64,000 nucleotides of DNA. Origin: Cordilura impudica. Taxonomy: Eukaryota; Arthropoda; Insecta; Diptera; Scathophagidae. Position numbers and translations under genes: made by a program. Where the stretch lies: contig OY821518.1 in assembly GCA_963682025.1 (NCBI GenBank), positions 125,884,800 through 125,948,799 on the forward strand. The letters are read 5' to 3'. Shown here piece by piece: positions 3,105-49,807 of this stretch; positions within the stretch are counted from its first letter, which is position 1; every line of letters starts with the position of its first letter. The notes under the pieces are model-generated. The model was not told the origin of the DNA. It worked only from the letters and a program-made list of their open reading frames with translations, and made no database searches.

Positions 3105-5888
3105 TTACATGCCCATAAGAGCAGTAAATTCACATATAGGTTTTACAGCATTTGGTGAGCAAGCCTGACGTACAGACATTTCCCAAGTATCCAATAAATG
3201 TGACAGAGAATATAGTTTAGGTAATTTAGCAATACGAGACATTAATGCATTTTGCACGGCCCTTAGAAATGCAGTAGGCGAATAGTCTTGCTCTATAAGA
3301 GAGCAGTCCGGCGAAGCCCAAGGGTATTCCTCTTTAAAAAAAAGTGAAACAAAAATATTATTATGTCAACTAAGAGAGTTGGCAAAACATTTTAAATTTT
3401 TACCAGGTATATTGACGCTTATTGGTGGAACACAAGGTAATTTTTTATCATCCAGACAGCAAATTAGTTTAATCGATTTTGTATTATTCTGTGCCGTCGA
3501 ATCTAGAGTGACCTTGAACTTTTGATCTAAACGTGCTATTTCACCTTGTAAAACATGTGGAATTTCCATTTCGTTCGAATACGGCTTTTCGGCAATACGT
3601 GCCATTTTTGGAGGTGCTGGAGCACAGATATCAGTACCGAATAATAATTCCAAGCTAGGACGAAAAGTTCTATATAACGTATGATTGGCTATAGGACTTT
3701 GTAATGTAGTGTTGATGACTTCCATTAAGGGATTTGAAGATTTCTACAAATGTTATTAATGAATAAATATGTTATCTAAATCTAGTATCAATAGTAATAT
3801 CAATTTAATTATAAAATTGTCTAAGTTTTATATATATTTGCCCTTTTTATATATATATTAAAAAAAAAAAACTCACTCCAAAGGTTTGTCCAGAATATGA
3901 AACAATTCCCATTCGCTCTAACGCCTTTTCACACTTTAGCAGTGTTTCCAATGGTACTCTCTGCACCGGATTAGTTAAAATTTCCAATAACTTATTCATT
4001 TTTATATAATTTTCGACATTATTACCATCTTTGCCAAATTTGGCTCTCATCCTTTTTATGGGCTCTATATATTTTGTTAATTGTTTATATTTTTCAATGT
4101 AAAGTTGATCTTCTTGTGGATTAAATGGACTATTTTGTTGCACTTGTCCGGGAGTATTAAGAGGAGCACTTGGAGATTGGCGCATTTGTTGGCGTTGCTG
4201 GGGATTTTGCATTAAACCAGGCATTTGTGGACTGGAGGTAGGCACCAGAGCTGGACTGGGTATCATTTGCGGATTTGGTAGTGGTTGTCCAGGTCCGCCT
4301 GATTGATAAGGTTGTTGCAATTGTTGCTGTTGCTGCTGCTGTTGTTGTTGTTGTTGTTGATTATTTACAACCTGTTGTTGTAGTTGTTGTTGCTGTTGTA
4401 CATTGAGAGCATTGCCTGGTGAAGACACCGTACTAGGTGACGGACTTTGCCGTAAAAATTGTTGTTGTCCTACAACACCGCGACTAACGCCAAACATTTG
4501 CTGACCTTGACCCATTGCCATGTTGGGATTTTTTTGCATACCCGGTGGCATATTTAACATTTGATTCAGATTTCCTTTATATATTAAACCATTAGAAACA
4601 GGTAAGAATTTTTAATAAAATATTTATGCTGCATCACTAACCTTGTTGTCCAGCTGTATTCGACATACCACCTGGTTGTCCTTGTGGTCCAGCATTGCCA
4701 ACAATATTATTCGGATGCATAGGCCCACCAGATCCTACACCAACAGGTTGGTTTTGTTGCATATTTGGTGGTATGCCTTGCATACCTTGATTAAGGCCAG
4801 CATTCGGACCACCTACATTCATAGGACCAGAACCAACTTGATTCATACGAGCATTCATCATTTGATTAAGCTGTGGATGTTGCATACTCATTTGTTGCAT
4901 TTGTTGTTGTTGCATTTGGTTGGGTATTTGTTGGACATTCATGGCGTTCACATTGACTACGGGACCACCTTGCATTTGACCGCCAGCATTCATTTGCATT
5001 TGATTAGGCACACCAGAGCCGCTAGAACCTGGACCCATAGGTACACCAGGGCCCGGTCCACCCATTTGATTCATTTGACCAGACATACCTTGGGGACCAC
5101 CAGGACCACCAGATGGCCCACCCATTTGTTGGGCATTTCCAATTTGCTGATTCGGCCCTCCACTAGGGCCACCCATAACATTCATTTGTATGCCACCAGG
5201 ACCACCCATTTGTGGCATCATTTGTTGTTGACCCGGTCCACCACCTATAATATTACCTTGTTGTTGTACTGGACCAGCCGAACCCATACTCATTTGTGGT
5301 CTGATACCTTGCATTTGCTGCATTTGTTGTTGACCTGGCCTCTGCTGATTAAGAGTTTGCAAAAGATTTGACGCTGGTACGGGGCCACCAGGACCAGCAC
5401 CTTGTTGGGCATTTGGTCCACCAGGCATCGACATCATTTGGGGATTACGATTACCTTGGCTAGCTAAATTTTGCAAAGCATTTAAAGGATCTTGCATCAT
5501 ATTTTGTTGACCCATTTCAGCATTGGGTGGAGGAGCTTGTTGCGGTCTTCCTGTTAATGAGATGATAACAATATAAAGGATTGAATTTATTAACTATCCA
5601 ATCAATAGACACTTACTTTGCGAAAGATCCTTAAAGTGCATAAACAATTTTGCCACCAGACCCAAATATTCATCTTTGCTTTTGGATTTCTTGAATATGT
5701 GATTTTCCATAACACTAGCGTTCTTAATGCCATCTTGTCCAGTATTTTGCAACATTTCATTGCTAAAATAACAACAAAAAACATGTTCGATGTTAAAAAA
5801 TAGTCCCCCAAAAATTTATTACTCTACTTATGTACATTTTTGCAATAACATTTTGCCGAAATTTTTGTGATTGCCATTCTTCTGTCAT
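3105..5888 (-). CDS. MED15: Mediator complex subunit 15 (MED15/ARC105), six exons, complete
   Basis: This is a tail-module subunit of the nuclear Mediator complex that links activators to RNA polymerase II. Exons, in order: 5888-5836, 5762-5617, 5550-4642, 4574-3877, 3743-3404, 3331-3105. Every inferred junction has GT/AG, phases agree, and the 2373-nt total is 790 codons plus stop. Residues 1-70 form the KIX domain ([17 protein letters not shown]; later [19 protein letters not shown]). Residues 70-500 are Gln/Met/Gly/Pro-rich with a polyQ tract encoded around 4320-4390. The C-terminal half carries the conserved block ([20 protein letters not shown]), then [23 protein letters not shown] and the final [13 protein letters not shown]. 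Introns are short (~60-135 bp) and free of transposons. The start is the only Met before the KIX domain. No disrupting change was seen, so it is probably functional. Confidence 0.95.
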
Positions 5889-29041: not shown

Positions 29042-29879
29042 TATAAAATATTTATGAAATGAACTACTTACTTTTTCGAACGAAGTATTTACTTGTATAT
29101 ATGAATATGAAACTTAAACTTTTTAATTTTTGTTTTTTTTTTTTTAAATTTGTAAGTCTACACTCAGACTTGCTAGACTTGGGGATATTTCCTCAAAAAT
29201 TGTTAATGAAAGGGACACAATTTTTCGATTCGTGGTAGGTTATATATATAAAAAAAAATACGGATTAATTGGGGATATTCAGAAACTAAAAAAATTAATA
29301 AATTACTTTGTCACAACCGCTGCACAGTGGACCATATTTTGAGAAGGCGGCCAAAAATCATTTTTTTTTTGTTACCGATTTTAAAGTTATGTTATTCATT
29401 TGAAAGTAAATACTAGTAAACCTCGGGAGCCAACAAATTGCGACTTTATCTCAACTATATCACAGCGAACAGGGTCTTCGAAAATGGGCTTTCTCAGTAT
29501 TTTGCTAAAATTAAAAATTTCTTTGTAAATTTTTATTTTTGAATGACTGTAACTTTTTCGATTTAAAAGATTTTGAAGTGAAATAAATTTTGTATAATTT
29601 TGTGGCTTCCATACTATTAATGTTAGAAATATAAGTCGTTCCGAAATTAAAAAAAATAAAAATTTTAAAGAAGGTCAAAATTTTCCGAAAATCTCCTACT
29701 TAATAGAGCATAACTCCTGCCAGTCAAAAGCAGTCAGAAAAAATTTTGCACTCTTCTATAGTCCGAACCCTCCCCTATACTCCTATACCCCATTATATAC
29801 CCGCCAGTTTCCGCCCGTGTGCACCAGAACAATTTTTCTGACCCAAGGTTAGATATTTTCTGCAAAATTTATGAATACA

Positions 29880-30025
29880 AAAGTTGTCCACTATGTGGTT
29901 ACGATATATTAAGTTTGAGGTGATGTTTGCAACTGCCAAAAATATTGAACCTTTATCCATCTTTTATTATACGGATCGACTCAAAAACACTTTCTGAGTC
30001 GATTAAACGATGTCCGTCCGTCCGT
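29880..30025 (-). repeat. GTCC-core element fragment, copy A3
   Basis: CACTATGTGGTTACGATATA, TGATGTTTGCAACTGCCAAA, ACGGATCGACTC and GATGTCCGTCCGTCCGTCTG match the first ~140 bp of minus-oriented copies such as A8. It lies inside Transib copy 2, so it inserted after that Transib. Confidence 0.6.
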
Positions 30026-30255
30026 CTGAGTGTTATGAATACAAAAGTTGGTCGTACCGGTGCACCGCGGTGTATTTTTTTGCGTGTCGGTAGAGTTGTC
30101 AGGAGTTGTTATATACTTATAAAAAAAGGGTTGAGATATAATGCACTTAATTGTTACAGGTACTTTTACATAGGTACCTTTCAAAAACATTAATATTCTG
30201 AATTAGAGTTATATAGTTTAAATACCTGACAAAATGGGAAACAATTTAAATAACA

Positions 30256-30603
30256 GGTAAATGGCAAAAAAAAAAAAAAACTATTGCGACATAGCCCTTT
30301 AAGATATGAGCAGGTATGCTTCACCTTTTTAAAGGGGTTAGGGTGTGGGTTTTTTATGCTTCTAAAAGTGGTAATAAAAGTGGTAATAATGAAGATACTA
30401 TCCAGCGGATAGCGAAATATTGAATAAATAAAAAACAACAACAAAAATTCCAAAATTGGCCTCAAGCTCAATAAATTAATAACAATTGGTAAAAAAAAAA
30501 ACTATTGCAACATAGCCCTTTAAGATATGAGCAGGTATGCTTCACCTTTTAAAAGGGGTTCGGGTATGGGTTTTTTATGCTTCTAAAAGTGGTAGTGAAA
30601 GAT
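30256..30603 (+). repeat. direct repeat inside Transib copy 2
   Basis: A ~110-bp block (AGCCCTTTAAGATATGAGCA followed by GGTATGCTTCACC and GGGTTTTTTATGCTTCTAAA) occurs at ~30,275-30,385 and again at ~30,500-30,600. It is upstream of the transposase, where the 5' untranslated region would be. Confidence 0.65.
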
Positions 30604-30624
30604 AAAAATTTTTATGTTACATAA

Positions 30625-32635
30625 TTGCAAGAAAGAGTATTTATAATAATGTTTCCACAATTATTATTCATTACAATTTGTGCAATGACTAAGTACTGTT
30701 ACAGAGATCTGGCAGATATTTATTTTCAACGAAATGATGTAGACGATGTAATTTTGCACATAGTGAGCAACGACTTCTTTAAGAATTGTAACCTAGAAGA
30801 CATTGAAATGCACAAAGGAAAAATTACTAATTTTGCATCGAATTTGAAAAGACGGTACATTGAATGCTCTCATAGCAAGGCAAAGATGTACAAACGTTAC
30901 CAAGACTGGTTAATAAAGGAACTTATTTTTGAGAGTGCATCTACAACTGCCAACGAAAGTGGAAAAAAGGGTCGACCAGCAAAACCAATTGACGGATGTA
31001 GTGAAAGATCTCGAAGGCGCAAGCTGGAGAATATCAATGAAGAAATTTCTCAAAGAATTATTAAGGATTAATTTTTGCACCAAATTCAACCAACCCAAAA
31101 TAAAAAAAAATAAAATTGTGCGCCCAAAGCGCACAAAGAGGATTTTGAAAAGCATTCCTACACCAATTGCAGATAAGAAATTTACGCCGGAAGAAGCGTT
31201 CGCCCTATTTTTGGACTTGAAATTGACCAAAAATCAATATAAGGAATTGCGGAAGCAAACCAATGAAAAGAATTGTGGGATTTTTCCAGAGTATCGAGAT
31301 TTAGTTTCTGCCAAAAAAGAATGCTTACCTTCACAATCTGCTATTAGTGTCACTTCAACATCAGCAGAAATAAAATTGCAAGATCTCCTGCAGAACGATT
31401 GCTAAATACTCTTGATACTGATAATTTAACAAAAATTGGTAATGGCAGCATTACTTTAATTTCTAAATGAGGATGTGATGGATCCCCTGGTCAGAAACAA
31501 TACAAGCAATTTAATGCCGAAAATTAATCAGATGCTAATTTATTTATGGTATCTTTCGTTGCATTGCGCTTAACAAAAAGGTATAGCGTCTTAGAGCCGT
31601 CAACTAGTAGAGCAACAGAAATCGATATATGGAAAAATGAAATTCCTTCTTCAACAAAGTATTGCAGACCAATAAAATTTGCATTCAAAAAGGAAACCAA
31701 AGATGTCATAACTGAAGAAGTTCAAAAAATAAAAGATCAAATTAAGGAACTTCAACCAGTAATATTTAAATTTGATGACCAAGACATTGAAGTACATTTT
31801 GAAATGTGTCTCACAATGATTGATGGAAAAGTTGCACAAGCTTTAACTGGAACAAAGTCAACGTCAAGCTGCATTATATGCCAAAAGACATCAAGTCAAT
31901 TAAGCCAACCCCCACCAGAAGACGATAGTTTTAAGGAAGCCTACGAATTTGGAATGTCCCCTCTTCATGCTAGAATACGTTTCATAGAGCATATTCGTAA
32001 ATTGGGTTATGATTTGGAATTTGGTCCGTTAGGCGAAACAGTGAGAAAAAACAAAGAAAATGAAGAAAAAAGAAATCGACCAACCAAAAGAAGGGGAAGG
32101 AAACACAAATGATGGAAATACTGCAAGGAGATTTTTTTCCGATCCGGAAACTGCAGCATCTATCACAGGTGTAGATCATGAATTAATAAGACGATTCAAA
32201 ATCATATTACAAGTTCTAGCATGCAGCAGAAAGATAAATGCAAAAAAATTTGGAGAGTACGCCAATAAAACAGCTATACTTTATAATGAAATATTATCTT
32301 GGAGATATATGCCATCCACAGTTCATAAAATTTTGTACCATGGGGAACAAATAATTCAAAACAATATGCTACCAATAGGAGATCTATCTGAAGAAGCGCA
32401 AGAAAAAAGGAACAAAGACTACAGAATCTTTCGCGAGCACAACACAAGGAAAATGTCCAAATGTTGTACTAATGAAGACCTTATCACTATTTTGTTATGC
32501 ACTTCAGATCCATATATGTCCAACATTCGTCAAAAATGGAAAACTACCTCTATTGAGTTAGACGAAGAAGCTAAACAACTTCTAGAATATGAAAATCAAG
32601 GCTATTTAGAAGAAATTTTTACTAAAATTGGTTGA
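30625..32635 (+). pseudogene. RAG1-like Transib transposase, copy 2, decayed
   Basis: It aligns along its whole length with the intact protein at 44,509-46,581. Matched segments include YRDLADIYFQRNDVDDVI, KRILKSIPTP, FTPEEAFALFLDLKLT, CDGSPGQKQYKQ (first Asp), TMIDGKVAQAL (second Asp), CIIC, VHKILYHG and LSEEAQEKRNKDYR (Glu). There are frameshifts near 31,070-31,100, 31,395 and 32,050-32,090, and in-frame stops at ~31,468 and ~31,525. Catalytic and zinc-ligand residues are kept, so the lesions look like neutral decay after insertion. Confidence 0.85.
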
Positions 32636-33629
32636 TTTAAAGTACTTTTTCATTACACTAACAGTAAGTTACACTTATTTTTATATAGTTAAAAAATTTT
32701 CTTGATTTAAAAATTCATATATTTTGTAAATTTACAATAAAAATTGTTATATTTCATAAATTTACCATAAAAATTTATATAGAAATATTTAAAAAGACAA
32801 TAAAAAAAAATTTAACTAAAGCAAAAACATACGAGTTTTTCATTGAAACTTCTCTATCTTGAATCAATATAAGGTAACTTTTACGTTCGCTGCTTAATAA
32901 ATTATATTTTAACTCGGGATCTTTCAAAAAAAAAAAACAACCTGTGGCCCTTGTGCACATTAGGACTAAAAAGTTTACGGGGGCCAAAGTTTGGCATTTT
33001 TTGAAAAAATTAACTTAAAAAATTGTTAAAAAGTATTAGTTGTAAAATTAACTGAAAAAATAACACATTATATTAAAAAAAAAAACCTTTTTTTACCTTT
33101 TAACACTTCACTTTTGTACTAAAATTCAACTACAAATGAAAATGTATTTTAAACCCTCCTTAACTTTTTTTATTTTCGATCGACAATTACGTTTTATAGC
33201 AAAACTTAGAGGCTAAAGTCTCACCTACCAAACAAAAAAAACCGCAAATCAAAATTCCAATCCAATCAAAAGTTATAGATTTTTGACCGCCTTCTCGTCA
33301 AATGGTCCACTGTGCGCTGGCCAAATCAATTAATAATATACAGTGGGTGGCAATACATTGTAAAAGTACAGAATTTAAAATTTTACAATTTTGTTTTTTA
33401 ATAATTCGCGTTAAGTTTTATTATTGTGCATTTTTTTTATATTTATTTTAGTGATGACAAAACACTGAAAACTTTTAAAATTTAGTAACAGAGTTGATTA
33501 AAACCATAAGAATAGAAGATGGCATGAAAGAAAGTATATAAATTCTTAACCGTTATTTAAATATTTAAATTTAACACAATTGTATTTTTTAAATGTTTTA
33601 ATCTTGTAATTAATTATTATAAAATAAGG

Positions 33630-41754: not shown

Positions 41755-43498
41755 TTAAGCAGTTTGACAGTTTTTACAAGTAATTATGGTATCAGAATGA
41801 TTTTTACAGACAAAATTTGCACACTTGGAACACTTATTTGAATATTTATTACTGTCTGAGCGATTGGGACATACATAGCAACGGCCCCTCTTAAGGTTTG
41901 TCTTTTTCAGTTCGCTTGTAGCATCAGGTTGTAAACTGCGAACGACTACTTTGGCTGAATTGCTGTGGGGAATATGCTCTCGACGAGATATTTCCGATTG
42001 AACAATTGATGTGGCTAATTCTTCTAAAAATATTCGACGTCGCAAATTCTTTTTCTTATTCCAGTCGTTATTTATTGAAGTAAAGACAACATAGGCATTA
42101 TAAGCTGTTATGTCTAACATGTTATAGAATAAAGTTTGAGGCCATCGATTACATCTGCGCTTGCAAGTGTAATTTCTGACCAATTGATCAAGCGTATCAA
42201 CTCCTGATTTCGTCTCATTATAGTAGTGTATAATTTCCGGTTTCATCTTGTCGCCATTAGTGTGGTGTAATGTGCATAGTAAAATAACAAAACGATTTTT
42301 CTTCGGCACAAATGCGACAATGGTTGTCTTGTTTTCTTTATCGAAAAAGAATTGAGAAAAATTTTCTGGTTTATCTTTCATGTTCAATATTTTTGGCGGA
42401 AGGAACGTTTTGTTTTTTCGGACTGTGCCAACCATAGTAAGCTTTCGTTTGAGTAGTTCATTTCCCAGTTCGTAGGAAGTAAAAAAATTGTCGCATGTGA
42501 CATTTCGACCTTTCAAATCCTTTACTAAATCTAAAACAACCCGACGACCTTGATCTTTTTCCGACTTGCAGTTTGGAGCTTTACCTGTGTATACTTGCAA
42601 CGACCATGCATAATTTGTTTTTGAGTCACAGAGAGCCCAGATTTTTATTCTATATTTTCCGGGTTTGAGGGTATATATTGCTTGAAAGGGCAATGTACGG
42701 TCGTACATTCGCCTGGATTATACATTTTTCTCAAATTTCTTTCCCAGCGGTCCCAAAAGTCTCTTATAGGGGCTAGTTCGTCACGCGCTCGTCTTTCATT
42801 TCTGTCTGACCTTTCATCAAATCGCAGAACTCGGGATATATTCTGAAATCGTCGAAAGCTCATGGTTGCCTTGAATATTGGCCTGCCTTTTCTATCATCC
42901 CGCAAACTTTCTAAAGCCTCACCATGAGATCGAAATACACCAGCTAAAAGGGAAGCCCCACATATGCTTTTGTTGAAGTACCATCTACGGGAATCCAGTT
43001 TTCTTGAAAAACGGAACGTCCTAAAATTTATAATAATATTAACCGAAATGCGCCAGCGAATGTAAAAAAGCATTACCTTCTAAATTTGTCATATCTATTA
43101 TAATCTTTAGTAGTTCACTTGCCATAAACAAATCGAATGACGATACAATGTCACTTATTCTTGCGACTGCATAATGGGTCGGACCAGGAGCACTATCCAT
43201 AACATTTTCGGCAGCACGTCTTCCGATTTCAGTTTGCTTCGGTGGGTGCTTCGGTGGAGAGAAAACTTGATAACACTGGAGTTTCGTTACTAATGCTGGA
43301 TCCATTTAGACTAGAAGCACTTTCTCCATCTGATCTATTCAATTCATAAGTTGAACCAGTATCAGATATAACAAAATCTTCCTTTTCGCTTGAAGAATCA
43401 CTTGGAGTTGCATCATAATCAGATTGATCTAACAGATCTTCAATTTCTTTAGTATTCAAACGAGACATACCGCGAATATTCACTTCTAAAACACACAC
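41755..43498 (-). pseudogene. piggyBac transposase, copy A
   Basis: Starts near MSRLNTKEIEDLLDQSDYDA with an acidic N-terminus. After a shift it reads through ARISDIVSSFDLFMASELLK to a short intron (43,076-43,021, GTAATG...TTTTAG), then GRSVFQENWIPVDG. The core has VTCDNFFTSYELG (second catalytic Asp) and SGVDTLDQLVRNYTCKRRC (third). It ends in the Cys-rich domain (CYVCPNRSD, CSKCANFVCKNH, CKNC). About 28 bp holding the first catalytic Asp block (DEQL in copy B) is deleted near 42,700, and another base is missing just downstream. It cannot be active. Confidence 0.85.
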
Positions 43499-43750
43499 GT
43501 TGATTACTTTTTTGCAAATGAAATAGAATAGTTAAAAATTACTATGATTCTCTTCAGTTTACTCGTTTCCATATATTTTCCCGTTACAATTCTTTTGCAC
43601 ACACTCATGGTGAAATTAATGTAGGTGTTGTTGGAACTCTGAGCAACAAACAAAGTCATTTGGTTGTGTGGCTCCATAGAGCTCGCTTAATTCACACGTA
43701 TTGCTACTCACGTATTGTTGTTACTCTTACTCTTAGGGTCGAAAATTCGG

Positions 43751-43792
43751 TGGCGCACAGTGGCTGAAAATCATTTTTCATTGGCCAAAATT
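43751..43792 (+). repeat. Transib copy 1 left terminus and target duplication
   Basis: TGGCG, then the RSS-like heptamer CACAGTG, then a 23-bp spacer, then CAAAATTC. The spacer contains TTTTTCATTGGC. The layout is the same as at the other end. Confidence 0.85.
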
Positions 43793-46700
43793 CTGTAACT
43801 TTTGAACCGATCAAAATATTTTAGTACTGTTTTTTTTAATAGATAGATAGATAGTTGATCTTGACTCAGTGTGAATTTCATTTAAATTGATTGAGTACTT
43901 TTTAAGGAATTCTAGGTCAAAGTTTAACTTTTGATTTTTTTTAACTTTTAGCGTGATATATGTTTTTTTTTATTTATTTTTATTTATTAGAAAGTGTCAT
44001 ATTTGGAGTTAAATAATTATTATAAACATTTTTTGTAATAATGAAATTTTTTTAATGCTTACACTCAAAAAAATTTTTACACTCAAAAAAATTTTTACAC
44101 GCAACAAAATAGTAAAATTCACTAGAAATTTAACTAGTATTACTAAAAAATTAAAAATGTTTGCTATCAAATTTGCAATTTGCTTACACTCAAGGAATAT
44201 TATTATTACTACAGAAAAATTTATTAGTGTTTGCTGCCTAATTTGTTACACTAGCTAAATAAATCTGCTAAACATTAGCGCAATGATTCTAATTTTTTTT
44301 TTAATTTTGATATGAAAATATGGGTTCTTATTTTTTGAATCTTTCTTATCTATTAAAACATTGCATTCATATGTGGGAAACCTTTTAAGAATAAAAACTG
44401 CAATAGATTTAAATAGCATTTGTAACAATGGTAGGTTCTGTTTATTATTATTTTTTACTAATACTATGTTTTTCGTACTTAAATAACAATGAAAGGCAAT
44501 TATAATTATTATTCATTAGACTCAAATATTGATTGCAAATATTCCATATTTTGTTCTGTGCTATTTCTGTTCTTTAGTAGTTTTTTGGCTTCTTCATCTA
44601 AATCCCGATGTTCCACTTTCCATTGATTTCGAATACTGGAGATGAACGGATCTGACGTTGCCAATAATATATTAAATAGATCTTCATTTGTGGAATTTCG
44701 TGACATTTTTCTAGTATTGTGCTGTCTATAAAATCTGTAATCCTTGTTCCTTTTTTCCTGAGCCTCCTCTGATAGATCTCCAAGTGGCACCAAATGATAT
44801 TTAATGACATCTTCTCCATGATAAAGGATTTTGTGGACTGTTGCAGACATATTTCTCCATGGGTAGTTGGTTGTATATATTTTTGCAGTTTCCTTAGCAT
44901 AATCTCCAAATTTTCTAGAGTCAATTTCTTCATTGCACGCAAGTACTTCTAGGATTATTTTAAATCTGAAAATAAGGTTTAAATCCACTCCTGTTATTTC
45001 AGATGCTGTTTCTGGATCTGAAAAGAATCTTCTTGCGGTATTGCCATCATTTGTATTGCCTGACCCTTGTTTTGGCTGATCTATAATCAATCCAAATTTG
45101 CGATATTCATCTTGAACATGTTTCTTTTTTGAACTTCTTAACTCTTTGTTGGTTTCGTTGTTTCTTATTGAAGGCCCGAAATCCAAATCATAACTGATTT
45201 TTAGTATGTGTTCCATAAGTCGTATTCTTGCATGTAGTGGTGATAATCCAAATTCGAAGGCATCGGTATTATCGAATGATTTTGTCGGGACTTGGTTTAA
45301 TTGGCTTGATGTTGCTTGGCATATAATGCAGCTGGATGCAGCCTTCGTGTTAGTCAAAGCCTGACCTACTTTTCCATCTATCATTGTCAGCACTAATTGG
45401 TAGCTTACTTCAATTTGCTGCCCATCTAACTGTAATTGTAATGGCTGTAGTGTTGCTATTTGGGCCTTGATATCACTAACTTCTTTGTTAATGGCATCAT
45501 GACTTTCTTTTTTCAATTCAAATTTGATTGGCCTGCAGTATTTCGTAGAAGATGGTGTCTCATTTTTCCAAATATCCATTGTTTGCATTGTACTACTCGA
45601 AGGCTCCGAATCTTCCAAAATCTTTTTCAATCGCAATGGTACAAATGATACCATGAACATATCTGAGTCCGAAATATTTTCACATACAACTTGTTTGTAT
45701 TGTTTTTGACCCGAAGAACCATCAAATCCCCATTTACAAAATAGAATTAACTTTGTGTTTCCATATTTCTTTAACTCAGTTCCTGTTATTGATTGTAGCA
45801 AGCGTTTGGCTGTGTGATCAAGTAAAGATTGTAGTTGTACTTCTGCCGAAATTGGTGTGATTGTAATAGTGTCCTTTGATGGCAAACAGTCTATTTTAGC
45901 AGCTGTTATGTGATGATATGCTGGATACATATTTGAGCCTTTTTCAATCGCACGCAATCTGAGCTGAATATATTGGTGTTTTGTTAATTTCAAATCCAGA
46001 AATAATGCTAATGCCTCCTCATTTGTGAACTGTTTTGCATCGCTCGGAGTTGGTATACTTTTAAGAATTCGCTTTGTTCTCACTGGACTAGCATTACAAG
46101 TTTTTTCAATGATATCCACTTTTGTTAATTGGTTTTGTGCTCGTAATTGATGTAGAAAAGATTCTTTTATATTTGTAGAACCAATTTCCTCGTTAAAATT
46201 TTTAAGTTTCCGCCTCTTAGATCTATCGCTGCAGTTGTCCAATGATTTGCGTGGTCTTCCAGCCTTATCTAGCTTTGCTGTTTCTCCACCAACATTAAGT
46301 TGGCCTTCTAACCAGTTTGCACTTTTATTATAAAACTTTTGTTTACAGTAGTTAACTTCTTTCAATCGTTTTTTTAGTACTTTGACGAAATTAGATAATT
46401 GCTCTTGTATTTCGGTACTAGACGAATTTAAGTTTAATTTTATTTTAACGTAACTAAGAACATCTTCCTGGTTTTTGTTTCGAAAATACTCTTCGGCCAG
46501 TTCTTTATAACTAAAGTTCTCCATATTTTTCTCAATATTTTTATTTGCGTCTGTTATCACTTTTTTATCACTTTTTATCACTTGCGAATATACGTCCGTA
46601 CACTTGAAGTATTAACTTATTATTGAGTAATCCCTTATAGAATCCGTCATTTTATACATTTTTAGGTACATGTTATTCACACATTGATCTTTAATTTCAT

Positions 46701-47596
46701 AGCAGGTAGTACTTAAATTGAACAAAACTGCACTTGTTATCCAGACTTCAATATCAGGTAAAACTAATTAGTTTCTCGCCAATATGGGGTGGTTTTTTAT
46801 CTTTAGTGGTTTAGTGCCGCGATTATTGACAAACTTATAAAATTGTTTATGACTTTGGTTGACCCTTAAATTTGACAACAGGTAAATTAAGAAAGAGATC
46901 ATTTGTTTACTGTAGAACCTATTGTGATCATTTTATGACTTATTTTTTTGCTGATCAAAACAAAGCCAATAAACCCTTTCGCAGGTATTTTATTTAATTA
47001 TTTTACTTTTACGTAGTCTAAAGTAAAAAAACAAAATTTTTTTTAGAGTAATTTTTTTAGAGTAATTTCATTAAAATGAAAAAAGTGTTCTACCGGGGGC
47101 TCGTGGGGGGTGCAAAAGTATATATAGGGTTAAACAGGATACATTCGCCTTTCTCCGGGTGGTATACGTTTCTTGTTCCCTTACTTCCTTTAGAAGTTCT
47201 ATTCCACTAAAGTTTAAATTTGAGAAAAATATAGTGGTTTCATAAATATTTCATAACGCCCCTAATATCAAACGTTAGAACTGTGACTACTTACAAAAAC
47301 TAAAGACTATAATCCTACTAACATTATAAAAAAGACCGCAGGCCAATATCGATGATAGCTTGCGAGTAGTAACCATTCATTTTTGATAAAAAACAAAAAA
47401 AAACACCTTTTGCTGAATTAAAAAAAACAGTTGAGTTTGACAGCATGCCACGCCCACAATTATCAATAGTTTAACCTAATTTTTTGGCTACCTTAATCTG
47501 GATATATAAGCTACAAAAAGGAGTAAAAATTTTAAAAATCGATGACAAAAAAAAATTTGACTTTTGGCCAATGAAATCAAAATTTGAGCCACAGTG
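43756..47596 (-). mobile_element. intact Transib element (copy 1)
   Basis: The ends are CACAGTGGCTGAAAATCA and, inward from the right, CACTGTGGCTCAAATTTTG. Both reach the identical block TTCATTGGCCAAAA at bases 22-35 of the element with no gap. The target duplication TGGCG lies at 43,751-43,755 and 47,597-47,601. The duplicated piggyBac segment at 49,161-49,174 (CGGTGGCGGTCTGT) is the same site without the insertion. The 3841-bp element has one full-length transposase gene, about 1 kb of 5' sequence and 750 bp of 3' sequence. It may still be autonomous. Confidence 0.93.
44509..46581 (-). CDS. Transib transposase, RAG1-like, full length (690 aa)
   Basis: A cut-and-paste transposase of the RAG1/Transib group, expected to nick and hairpin DNA at CAC-ending termini. 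Against the RAG1 core it shows: a Lys/Arg-rich region at residues 105-130; D287 in CKWGFDGSSGQKQYKQ (RAG1 D600); D402 in LTMIDGKVGQAL (D708); C418 and C421 in SCIICQAT (C727/C730); H583 and H588 in TVHKILYHG (H937/H942); and E609 in LSEEAQEKRNKDYR (E962, aligned through the following NK pair). DGNTARRFF corresponds to the RAG1 NGNFARKL segment. The frame has no stop or shift, and the length suits the family. It begins at the first Met of the frame; Met-21 (MENFSYKELAEEYF) is an equally good start because similarity to copy 2 begins there. Confidence 0.93.
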   Translation of the reverse strand: MIKSDKKVITDANKNIEKNMENFSYKELAEEYFRNKNQEDVLSYVKIKLNLNSSSTEIQEQLSNFVKVLKKRLKEVNYCKQKFYNKSANWLEGQLNVGGETAKLDKAGRPRKSLDNCSDRSKRRKLKNFNEEIGSTNIKESFLHQLRAQNQLTKVDIIEKTCNASPVRTKRILKSIPTPSDAKQFTNEEALALFLDLKLTKHQYIQLRLRAIEKGSNMYPAYHHITAAKIDCLPSKDTITITPISAEVQLQSLLDHTAKRLLQSITGTELKKYGNTKLILFCKWGFDGSSGQKQYKQVVCENISDSDMFMVSFVPLRLKKILEDSEPSSSTMQTMDIWKNETPSSTKYCRPIKFELKKESHDAINKEVSDIKAQIATLQPLQLQLDGQQIEVSYQLVLTMIDGKVGQALTNTKAASSCIICQATSSQLNQVPTKSFDNTDAFEFGLSPLHARIRLMEHILKISYDLDFGPSIRNNETNKELRSSKKKHVQDEYRKFGLIIDQPKQGSGNTNDGNTARRFFSDPETASEITGVDLNLIFRFKIILEVLACNEEIDSRKFGDYAKETAKIYTTNYPWRNMSATVHKILYHGEDVIKYHLVPLGDLSEEAQEKRNKDYRFYRQHNTRKMSRNSTNEDLFNILLATSDPFISSIRNQWKVEHRDLDEEAKKLLKNRNSTEQNMEYLQSIFESNE

Positions 47597-47601
47597 TGGC
47601 G
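47560..47601 (-). repeat. Transib copy 1 right terminus and target duplication
   Basis: Read inward on the minus strand: heptamer CACTGTG, a 23-bp spacer ending TTTCATTGGC, then CAAAAGTC. The duplicated target TGGCG follows at 47,597-47,601. Confidence 0.85.
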
Positions 47602-47942
47602 GTCTGTCTCTCTCTCTCACTTATACTATCATTTTATTCCCGTTACATCTCTACTGTTCTCTGTTGAAGAAATACAAAGCACAAATATTTTGATATAAAC
47701 GTGCCAAATTCGCTAATATAGCAAAATATGATAAAAAAACTTCGTATTATATTTGTATTGGGCAATATTGACCCATAAATACAGAATACAGAATAGGCCC
47801 TAACCAAAAAGTGCCTTTAATGAAATGAGGCCTTACAGAACAAATTTAGGCCAAAAAAATAATTTTCAGAAAATTTCACGAATCAATGTTAAGAACTTCC
47901 AAAATTATTAGGAAACAAAAATGGTTTGGGCAATTTTGACCC

Positions 47943-48890
47943 ATCTAAAACAACCCGACGACCTTGATCTTTTTCCGACTTGCAGTTTGGAGCTTTACCT
48001 GTGTATACTTGCAACGACCATGCATAATTTGTTTTTGAGTCACAGAGAGCCCAGATTTTTATTCCATATTTTCCGGGTTTAGAGGGTATATATTGCTTGG
48101 AAGGGCAACGTCCACGGTATGTAACTAGCTGTTCATCTACGGTCGTATATTCGCCTGGATTATAAATTTTTCTCAAATTTCTTTCCCAGCGGTCCCAAAA
48201 GTCTCTTTCATTTCTGTCTGACCTTTCATCAAATCGCAGAGCTCGGGATATATTCTGAAATCGTCGAAAGCTCATGGTTGCCTTGAATATTGGCCTGCCT
48301 CTTCTATCATCAAACAAACTTTCTAAAGCCTCACCATGAGATCGAAATACACCAGCTAAAAGGAGAAGCCCCAAATATGCTTTTGTTGAAATACCATCTA
48401 CGGGAATCCAGTTTTCTTGAAAAACGGAACGTCCTAAAATTTATAATAATATTAACCGAAATGCGCCAGCGAATGTAAAAAAGCATTACCTTCTAAATTT
48501 GTCATATCTATTATAATCTTTAGTAGTTCCACTTGCCATAAACAAATCGAATGACGATACAATGTCACTTATTCTTGCGATTGCATAATGGGTCGGACCA
48601 GGAGCACTATCCATAACATTTTCGGCAGCATGTCTTCCTATTTCATTCTGCTTCGGTGGGTGCTTCGGTGGAGAGAAAACTTGATGACACTGGAGTTTCG
48701 TTACTAATGCTGTATCCATTTAGACTAGAAGCACTTTCTCCATCTGATCTATTCAATTCATAAGTTGAACCAGTATCAGATATAACAAAATCTTCTTTTC
48801 GCTTGAAGAATCACTTGGAGTTGCATCATAATCAGATTGATCTAACAGATCTTCTATTTATTTAGTATTCAGACGAGACATACCGCGAAT
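47943..48890 (-). pseudogene. piggyBac transposase, copy B, lacks its C-terminal half
   Basis: It repeats the N-terminal and middle parts of copy A, with the intron. It keeps the first catalytic Asp block (TTVDEQLVTYRGR) that copy A has lost. It stops at RRVVLD, where the sequence joins piggyBac right-end DNA (GGGCAATTTTGACCC) at 47,942/47,943, so the second and third Asp and the Cys-rich domain are absent. A one-base insertion near 48,530, a change in the acidic N-terminus and a 27-bp deletion (ARDELAPIR in copy A) add to the damage. Confidence 0.8.
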
Positions 48891-49807
48891 ATTCACTTCT
48901 AAAACACACACGTTGATTACTTTTTTGCAAATGAAATAGAATAGTGGAAACTACCTTGATTCTCTTCAGTTTATTCGTTTCCATATATTTTCCCGTTACA
49001 ATTCTTTTGCACACACTCATGGTGCAATTACATGTAGGTGTTGTTGGAGCTCTGAGCAACAAACAAAGTCATTTGGTTGTGTGGCTCCATAGAGCTCGCT
49101 TAATTCACACGTATTGCTACTCACGTATTGTTGTTACTCTTACTCTTAGGGTTGAAAATGCGGTGGCGGTCTGTCTCTCTCTCTCTCTCACTTATACTAT
49201 AATTTTATTCCCGTTACATCTCTACTGTTCTCTGTTGAAGAAATACAAAGCACAAATATTGTGATATAAACGTGCCAAATTCGCTATTATAGCAAAATAT
49301 GATAAAAAACTTCGTATTATATTTGTATTGGGCAATATTGACCCATAAATACAGAATACGTAATTTTTCTTGTAGGCCCTAACCAAAAAGGGCCTTTAAT
49401 TAAATGAGGCCTTACAGAACAAATTTAGGCCAAAAAAATAATTTTCAGAAAATTTCAAGAATCAATGTTAAGAACTTCCAAAATTATTAGGAAACAAAAA
49501 TGGTTTGGGCAATTTTGACCCGTTAATACAGGATAAGGGTTAATAATTTTTGAAATTATGAATTTATTCACAAATATTCTTTTGCTTATTATTCTGGTTT
49601 CTATCTCTTCACAAAACTTTATTCTTGCCATTGTTTTATAATTATTAATTACTAGCAGAAATTCGAGTGCAAATTCTAGGCAACTTTATTTTTTCATTCA
49701 ATTTTTTTCTTTCAAATAAAATATATTAAGTTTCATTATAAATATTTGTTGAACACACACAATATTTATAATTGGGTTTGTTAATTAATAATTTTATAAA
49801 AGCTTAA

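Follow-up and report, generated by a model that had tools for sequence, protein, structure and literature searches.

Among the described relatives of RAG1, the enzyme that rearranges human antibody genes, the Transib transposons of insects are closest to the element reported here. HzTransib, the Transib of Helicoverpa zea (PDB 6pqn/6pqx), has been shown to cleave DNA in vitro, and its catalytic residues are numbered D126, D225, and E436 (PMC6941560). Transib1 spread through Drosophila melanogaster between 2013 and 2016 (PMC12230796, PMC12974806). It is one of the few families of RAG1's transposon relatives with documented recent natural activity. The elements hopper and transib2 of D. melanogaster use the target CCANTGG (PMC3276498), and RAG itself inserts in vitro into 5-bp GC-rich targets (PMC11844651). 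We describe here a Transib from the fly Cordilura impudica (Scathophagidae), found in a 64,000-nucleotide stretch of contig OY821518.1 (hereafter "the window") at positions 43756–47596 of that stretch. It adds a new member to the Transib superfamily, and we hold with high confidence that it is a complete element with a single RAG1-like transposase gene and near-identical, same-ended copies across the genome. The most interesting result lies outside the window: the family appears to have undergone a very recent burst that favored CGNCG sites beside other Transib-type ends.

The earlier note on this DNA had described an apparently intact RAG1-like Transib with matching inverted ends and a perfect 5-bp duplication, and the coordinates, both ends, and the duplication were all recovered (Table 1). 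The inverted ends are 38 bp each and 79% complementary. As is characteristic of the superfamily, both open with CAC and carry a heptamer like that of the recombination signal sequence (RSS); its central base differs between the two ends when they are read inward. A 15-bp block common to the two ends lies at an equal distance in both, so that the 12/23 asymmetry of the vertebrate RAG/RSS system is not seen. The TGGCG repeat is not a chance match, because an unoccupied site with one TGGCG exists in a tandem duplicate of the flanking DNA: the joined element flanks match the duplicate at 48670–49521 in 815 of 855 columns, with no element between them. The duplication relates 42529–43755 to 47943–49168 (92% identical), and the duplicated DNA holds a piggyBac-type coding sequence (DDE_Tnp_1_7; 41755–42708 and 47889–48374). 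Since the two flank duplicates are about 5–8% apart and the Transib copies about 0.1%, the duplication probably predates the insertion by far.

The 690-codon frame that had been read without lesions is indeed open on the minus strand (46581..44509) and has GTG at its start; the ATG at its codon 20, which is present in 37/37 copies examined, is likely the start codon. Residues are numbered here from this ATG. Counterparts of the RAG1 catalytic and zinc residues, also proposed in the earlier note, are nearly invariant, the catalytic ones aligning with the HzTransib triad, in an alignment of 122 proteins (the window protein, the copy L013, and 120 homologues; denominators in Table 1 are the proteins with a residue at the column). 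That the CxxC and HxxxxH positions of RAG1 serve as zinc ligands is established. A profile search, set in advance as a test of membership, places the protein inside the RAG1/Transib clade, and in sequence, profile, and structure comparisons alike Transib ranks first and RAG1 second. The sequence match to HzTransib has E = 1.5e-115, and the predicted structure, as had been proposed for comparison, overlays the HzTransib hairpin-forming complex with the same transposase fold (1.9 Å over 472 residues, 42% identity), which speaks for the convergence of the predicted catalytic residues D268, D383, and E590. P element, hAT, Tn5, and ISCth4 rank far below Transib in the structure comparison, as fits a general transposase fold. 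The window protein differs from HzTransib in having about 140–160 residues ahead of the region that the solved chain covers; it is known from its sequence and a model, whereas HzTransib cleavage was observed in vitro (PMC6941560). Homologues number 795 at E ≤ 0.001, and among the 120 matches listed every one with an organism name is from an insect. RAG1/RAG2 and RAG-like transposons such as ProtoRAG differ from the window element, which has no second unspliced frame above 111 amino acids (ATG-started frames of at least 60 amino acids are only 671, 111, and 67 amino acids long). Accordingly, no RAG2-like gene was found beside the RAG1-like gene among unspliced frames of the element, a search that an intron-broken gene would escape.

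Table 1. Features of the window, with the basis for each assignment
Feature	Coordinates	Strand	Basis or remark
Transib element, 3,841 bp	43756..47596	- (strand of its gene)	ends, duplication, empty-site paralogue, further copies
Target-site duplication TGGCG, left copy	43751..43755	.	single copy at 49164-49168 in empty site
Target-site duplication TGGCG, right copy	47597..47601	.	same empty-site basis as left copy
Left terminal inverted repeat	43756..43793	+	inward heptamer CACAGTG; block common to both ends at positions 21-35
Right terminal inverted repeat	47559..47596	-	inward heptamer CACTGTG; block common to both ends at positions 21-35
Transposase gene, 671 codons from ATG at 46524, plus stop	44509..46524	-	690 codons from upstream GTG at 46581
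Codon of predicted catalytic Asp D268 (D287 in 690-count)	45721..45723	-	aligned with HzTransib D126; 122/122 proteins
Codon of predicted catalytic Asp D383 (D402 in 690-count)	45376..45378	-	aligned with HzTransib D225; 119/121 proteins
Codon of predicted catalytic Glu E590 (E609 in 690-count)	44755..44757	-	aligned with HzTransib E436; 120/120 proteins
CxxC pair C399/C402 (C418/C421 in 690-count), predicted zinc ligands	45319..45330	-	121/121 proteins
HxxxxH pair H564/H569 (H583/H588 in 690-count), predicted zinc ligands	44818..44835	-	120/120 proteins
Tandem duplicate of flanking DNA	47943..49521	.	contains the empty target site with one TGGCG (49164-49168)
Decayed, older Transib from a different family, flanked on each side by CGCTG	29323..33314	+	right end resembles the neighbor's end beside young copies in L025, L056

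Copies of the element were sought across the genome (1.486 Gb, 855 contigs), and the 36 best-scoring of 2,785 first-look candidates, 37 of which were scored, were fetched; with the window copy they make up the 37 copies examined. Near-identical copies occur on all five large chromosomes. Both ends are complete in 34/36 of the further copies, whose mean pairwise divergence is 0.126% (630 pairs), and the window copy averages 0.199% from them. A full-length frame is present in 33/37 copies, 15 of which encode an identical protein, and a perfect 5-bp duplication flanks 32/37, the window copy included. Genome-wide there are 859 exact right ends and 2,840 left ends with at most three mismatches, and the reversed pattern of each is found zero times. 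When the first 100 perfect left ends on C1 (1–142 Mb) were matched to the listed right ends, 84 paired, 77 of them at 3,780–3,900 bp; over that region most of the family is of full length and short derivatives are few. At a ratio of 77 pairs per 96 right ends, the 859 would correspond to roughly 700 copies with both ends perfect. The sequence comparisons indicate that the family likely burst very recently. Transib1 of D. melanogaster and D. simulans likewise spread recently in flies, leaving full-length copies that are near-identical and carry 5-bp duplications; it is described as 3,030 bp long, as against 3,841 bp, and its spread was dated from population samples, whereas that of the present family is estimated from divergence.

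Three of the fetched loci have unusual junctions. L022 (C1:58430865-58439418) is a composite in which a near-complete copy is joined to an inverted one, and L036 (C2:126966080-126972371) joins a copy to an internal piece of another; neither has a 5-bp duplication. At the left junction of L031, one additional C separates the left heptamer from the duplication CGACG.

The target of the family is CGNCG-like, 19 of the 32 perfect duplications being exactly CGNCG. It resembles hopper and transib2 in its membership of the Transib superfamily, its 5-bp duplications, and its palindromic target motif. In 6/37 copies the duplication adjoins another CACAGTG. By tblastn each of the six neighbors matches the transposase, and all are divergent Transibs; three carry the same 5 bp at their far ends, two carry it with one mismatch, and for one no far end was found. 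L056, judged by end sequences, is flanked by two older Transibs that differ from each other, and CGACG stands at either side of it. As a rate of kin-abutting copies, 6/37 was abandoned after the whole-genome count, in which 32/859 right ends adjoin a Transib-type heptamer. The same holds for 25 left ends, and the gap is CGNCG at 57/57 such junctions, L056 being counted on both sides. The neighbors looked at were the six and the two ends in L056; the remainder are presumed Transib ends. There are 12,355 CGNCGCACAGTG sites genome-wide against 28 for the reversed pattern, and Transib ends from many families probably number in the thousands and account for a large part of the genome.

These junctions exceed what a preference for CGNCG alone would give. 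CGNCG occurs at 0.77 per kb in 145,876 sampled bases, or about 1.15 million sites genome-wide, and if 11,800 neighboring sites and 0.65–1.25 million CGNCG sites are assumed, 4–8 of the 859 right ends would be expected to abut a heptamer, versus 32 seen. CAC follows the 5-bp gap at 50/859 right ends; 32 of these extend to CACAGTG and 18 do not (8/18 with CGNCG), while in the genomic background 12,355/36,938 CGNCGCAC sites extend to CACAGTG. The matched control among CGNCGCAC sites gives an odds ratio of 8.0–8.3 for heptamer-bearing sites (p about 1e-9), computed with 0, 540, or 900 young copies taken out of the background. Insertions adjoining another CACAGTG heptamer are in excess over matched CGNCGCAC sites, and the odds ratio of about 8 within such sites indicates that the excess tracks the full heptamer and not merely a CAC flank.

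One possible, if doubtful, cause of this excess is target recognition, in which CGNCG beside CACAGTG is captured either by the transposase complex or by a dimer of resident transposase bound at an old Transib end. The transposase would then, we tentatively suggest, treat a CACAGTG end already in place as belonging to its target and join its own ends across the adjacent CGNCG, producing tandem chains with one common duplication. If true, such homing to the ends of related Transibs would put RSS-like recognition to work in choosing targets and would be a possible origin of RAG's paired-signal handling. The older duplications, however, are sites once accepted by a Transib, with one native flank kept, which might by itself produce an excess. 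Moreover, a CGNCG bearing a heptamer on each side occurs, over all families, only about 2–5 times as often as expected (124 vs 26–59); the young family's left end is involved in 25 of the 124. We favor the plainer cause, namely that these sites had already been accepted once as good targets, over recognition of the ends. Among the open-licence papers listed in literature searches on targets, no title or abstract opening described insertion into the duplications of resident Transibs.

Under the favored reading, the transposase is predicted to pair the two CAC(A/T)GTG ends, which would be cleaved with hairpin formation as known from HzTransib and RAG, to excise the element, and to paste it elsewhere, the ends being joined 5 bp apart in a GC-rich target. 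The older Transibs' end-flanking duplications would serve as ready-made targets, used above matched CGNCGCAC sites. Copy number would have risen in one recent burst, after which the new copies would drift without selection. Relative to the per-column majority, coding substitutions comprise 24 replacements, seven silent changes, and one stop (one common non-private site excluded); the replacement share (24/31, stop excluded) is 77%, versus 78% expected without selection. We infer that copies drift after insertion, as expected for a family with a trans-acting transposase that has just spread.

It is very unlikely that the copies instead belong to a family long dead whose members gene conversion has kept similar, or that they are duplicates produced in assembly. 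The composites L022 and L036 among the 36 fetched loci, and small contigs such as C218 among the 855, would suit such an origin, but distinct flanks with their own 5-bp duplications in 32/37 copies do not, nor do the substitutions, which are private save at three sites common to at least two copies. Least probable of all is that the gene is a host-domesticated RAG1-like protein: the frame is open and the predicted catalytic residues are conserved, but complete ends enclose the gene, a target-site duplication and an empty site accompany them, those ends recur hundreds of times in the genome, and the copies gain replacements at the no-selection rate.

Several observations weigh against the picture of a complete element in a young, active family. 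Pfam gave no RAG1 match on the window protein, and PF26100, although precomputed on many homologues, did not match the scanned copy. The sampling leans to young, intact copies. Four of the 37 frames are cut short, five of the 37 copies lack a perfect 5-bp duplication, one of the 84 paired left ends on C1 is internally deleted (1,530 bp), and 16/100 left ends there have no listed right-end partner. The CCANTGG target of hopper and transib2 differs from the CGNCG-like one here, and a concentration of Transib-flanked sites in insertion-tolerant intergenic DNA could inflate the odds ratio. In six other loci, a small sample with five taken as 1.2-kb pieces, 9 mismatches were nevertheless counted over about 9,000 aligned columns, so that the youth of the family is not merely an effect of picking the best copies.

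The window copy itself is slightly worn. Five substitutions, three of which are replacements, and an in-frame deletion of 6 bp that removes two codons set it apart from the per-column majority among the 37 copies; these changes might impair it and so also count against activity. One replacement places Phe beside the first predicted catalytic Asp, in a column that is Cys in 104/122 and Phe in 8/122 proteins; HzTransib likewise has Phe there. The description "apparently intact" therefore suits the open frame but not activity, which is a matter of prediction, and the window copy is not the best-kept of the family. "Mobile until recently" is well borne out by the 859 right ends, the mostly full-length pairings, the divergence of about 0.1%, and the mostly intact frames and duplications; the count of near-identical copies that the earlier note had proposed gave the 36 fetched copies and, genome-wide, the exact right ends. 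We considered the window copy as the ancestor of the burst and rejected it, since the nearest homologue, P0001, sides with the other copies wherever the window copy stands alone. The family provides a probably active system together with real insertion sites in large number, which permits asking directly whether RAG-type transposases choose targets via signal-like heptamers.

Among the insertion sites, the one at the L018 junction (copy C2:55602603-55606450) appears by eye to be tRNA-Ser-derived-like; no tRNA was reported when the joined flanks of 32 copies, L018 included, were scanned. Rfam at gathering thresholds gave no match within the window. The frame of the older decayed Transib is broken into several pieces, one of which (32060–32635) is the only frame to match PF12940, at 18.1 bits, below the cut-off of 25. 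Positions 1–790 hold the right part of a third, older Transib, which ends in CACTGTG followed by CGTCG and is cut by the window edge. On the minus strand at 3105–5888 lies the host MED15 gene, which points to a fly, most likely a calyptrate, and whose six exons, spliced by reading, give an open frame with 85% identity to that of Calliphora vicina and 75–76% to those of Haematobia irritans and Musca autumnalis.
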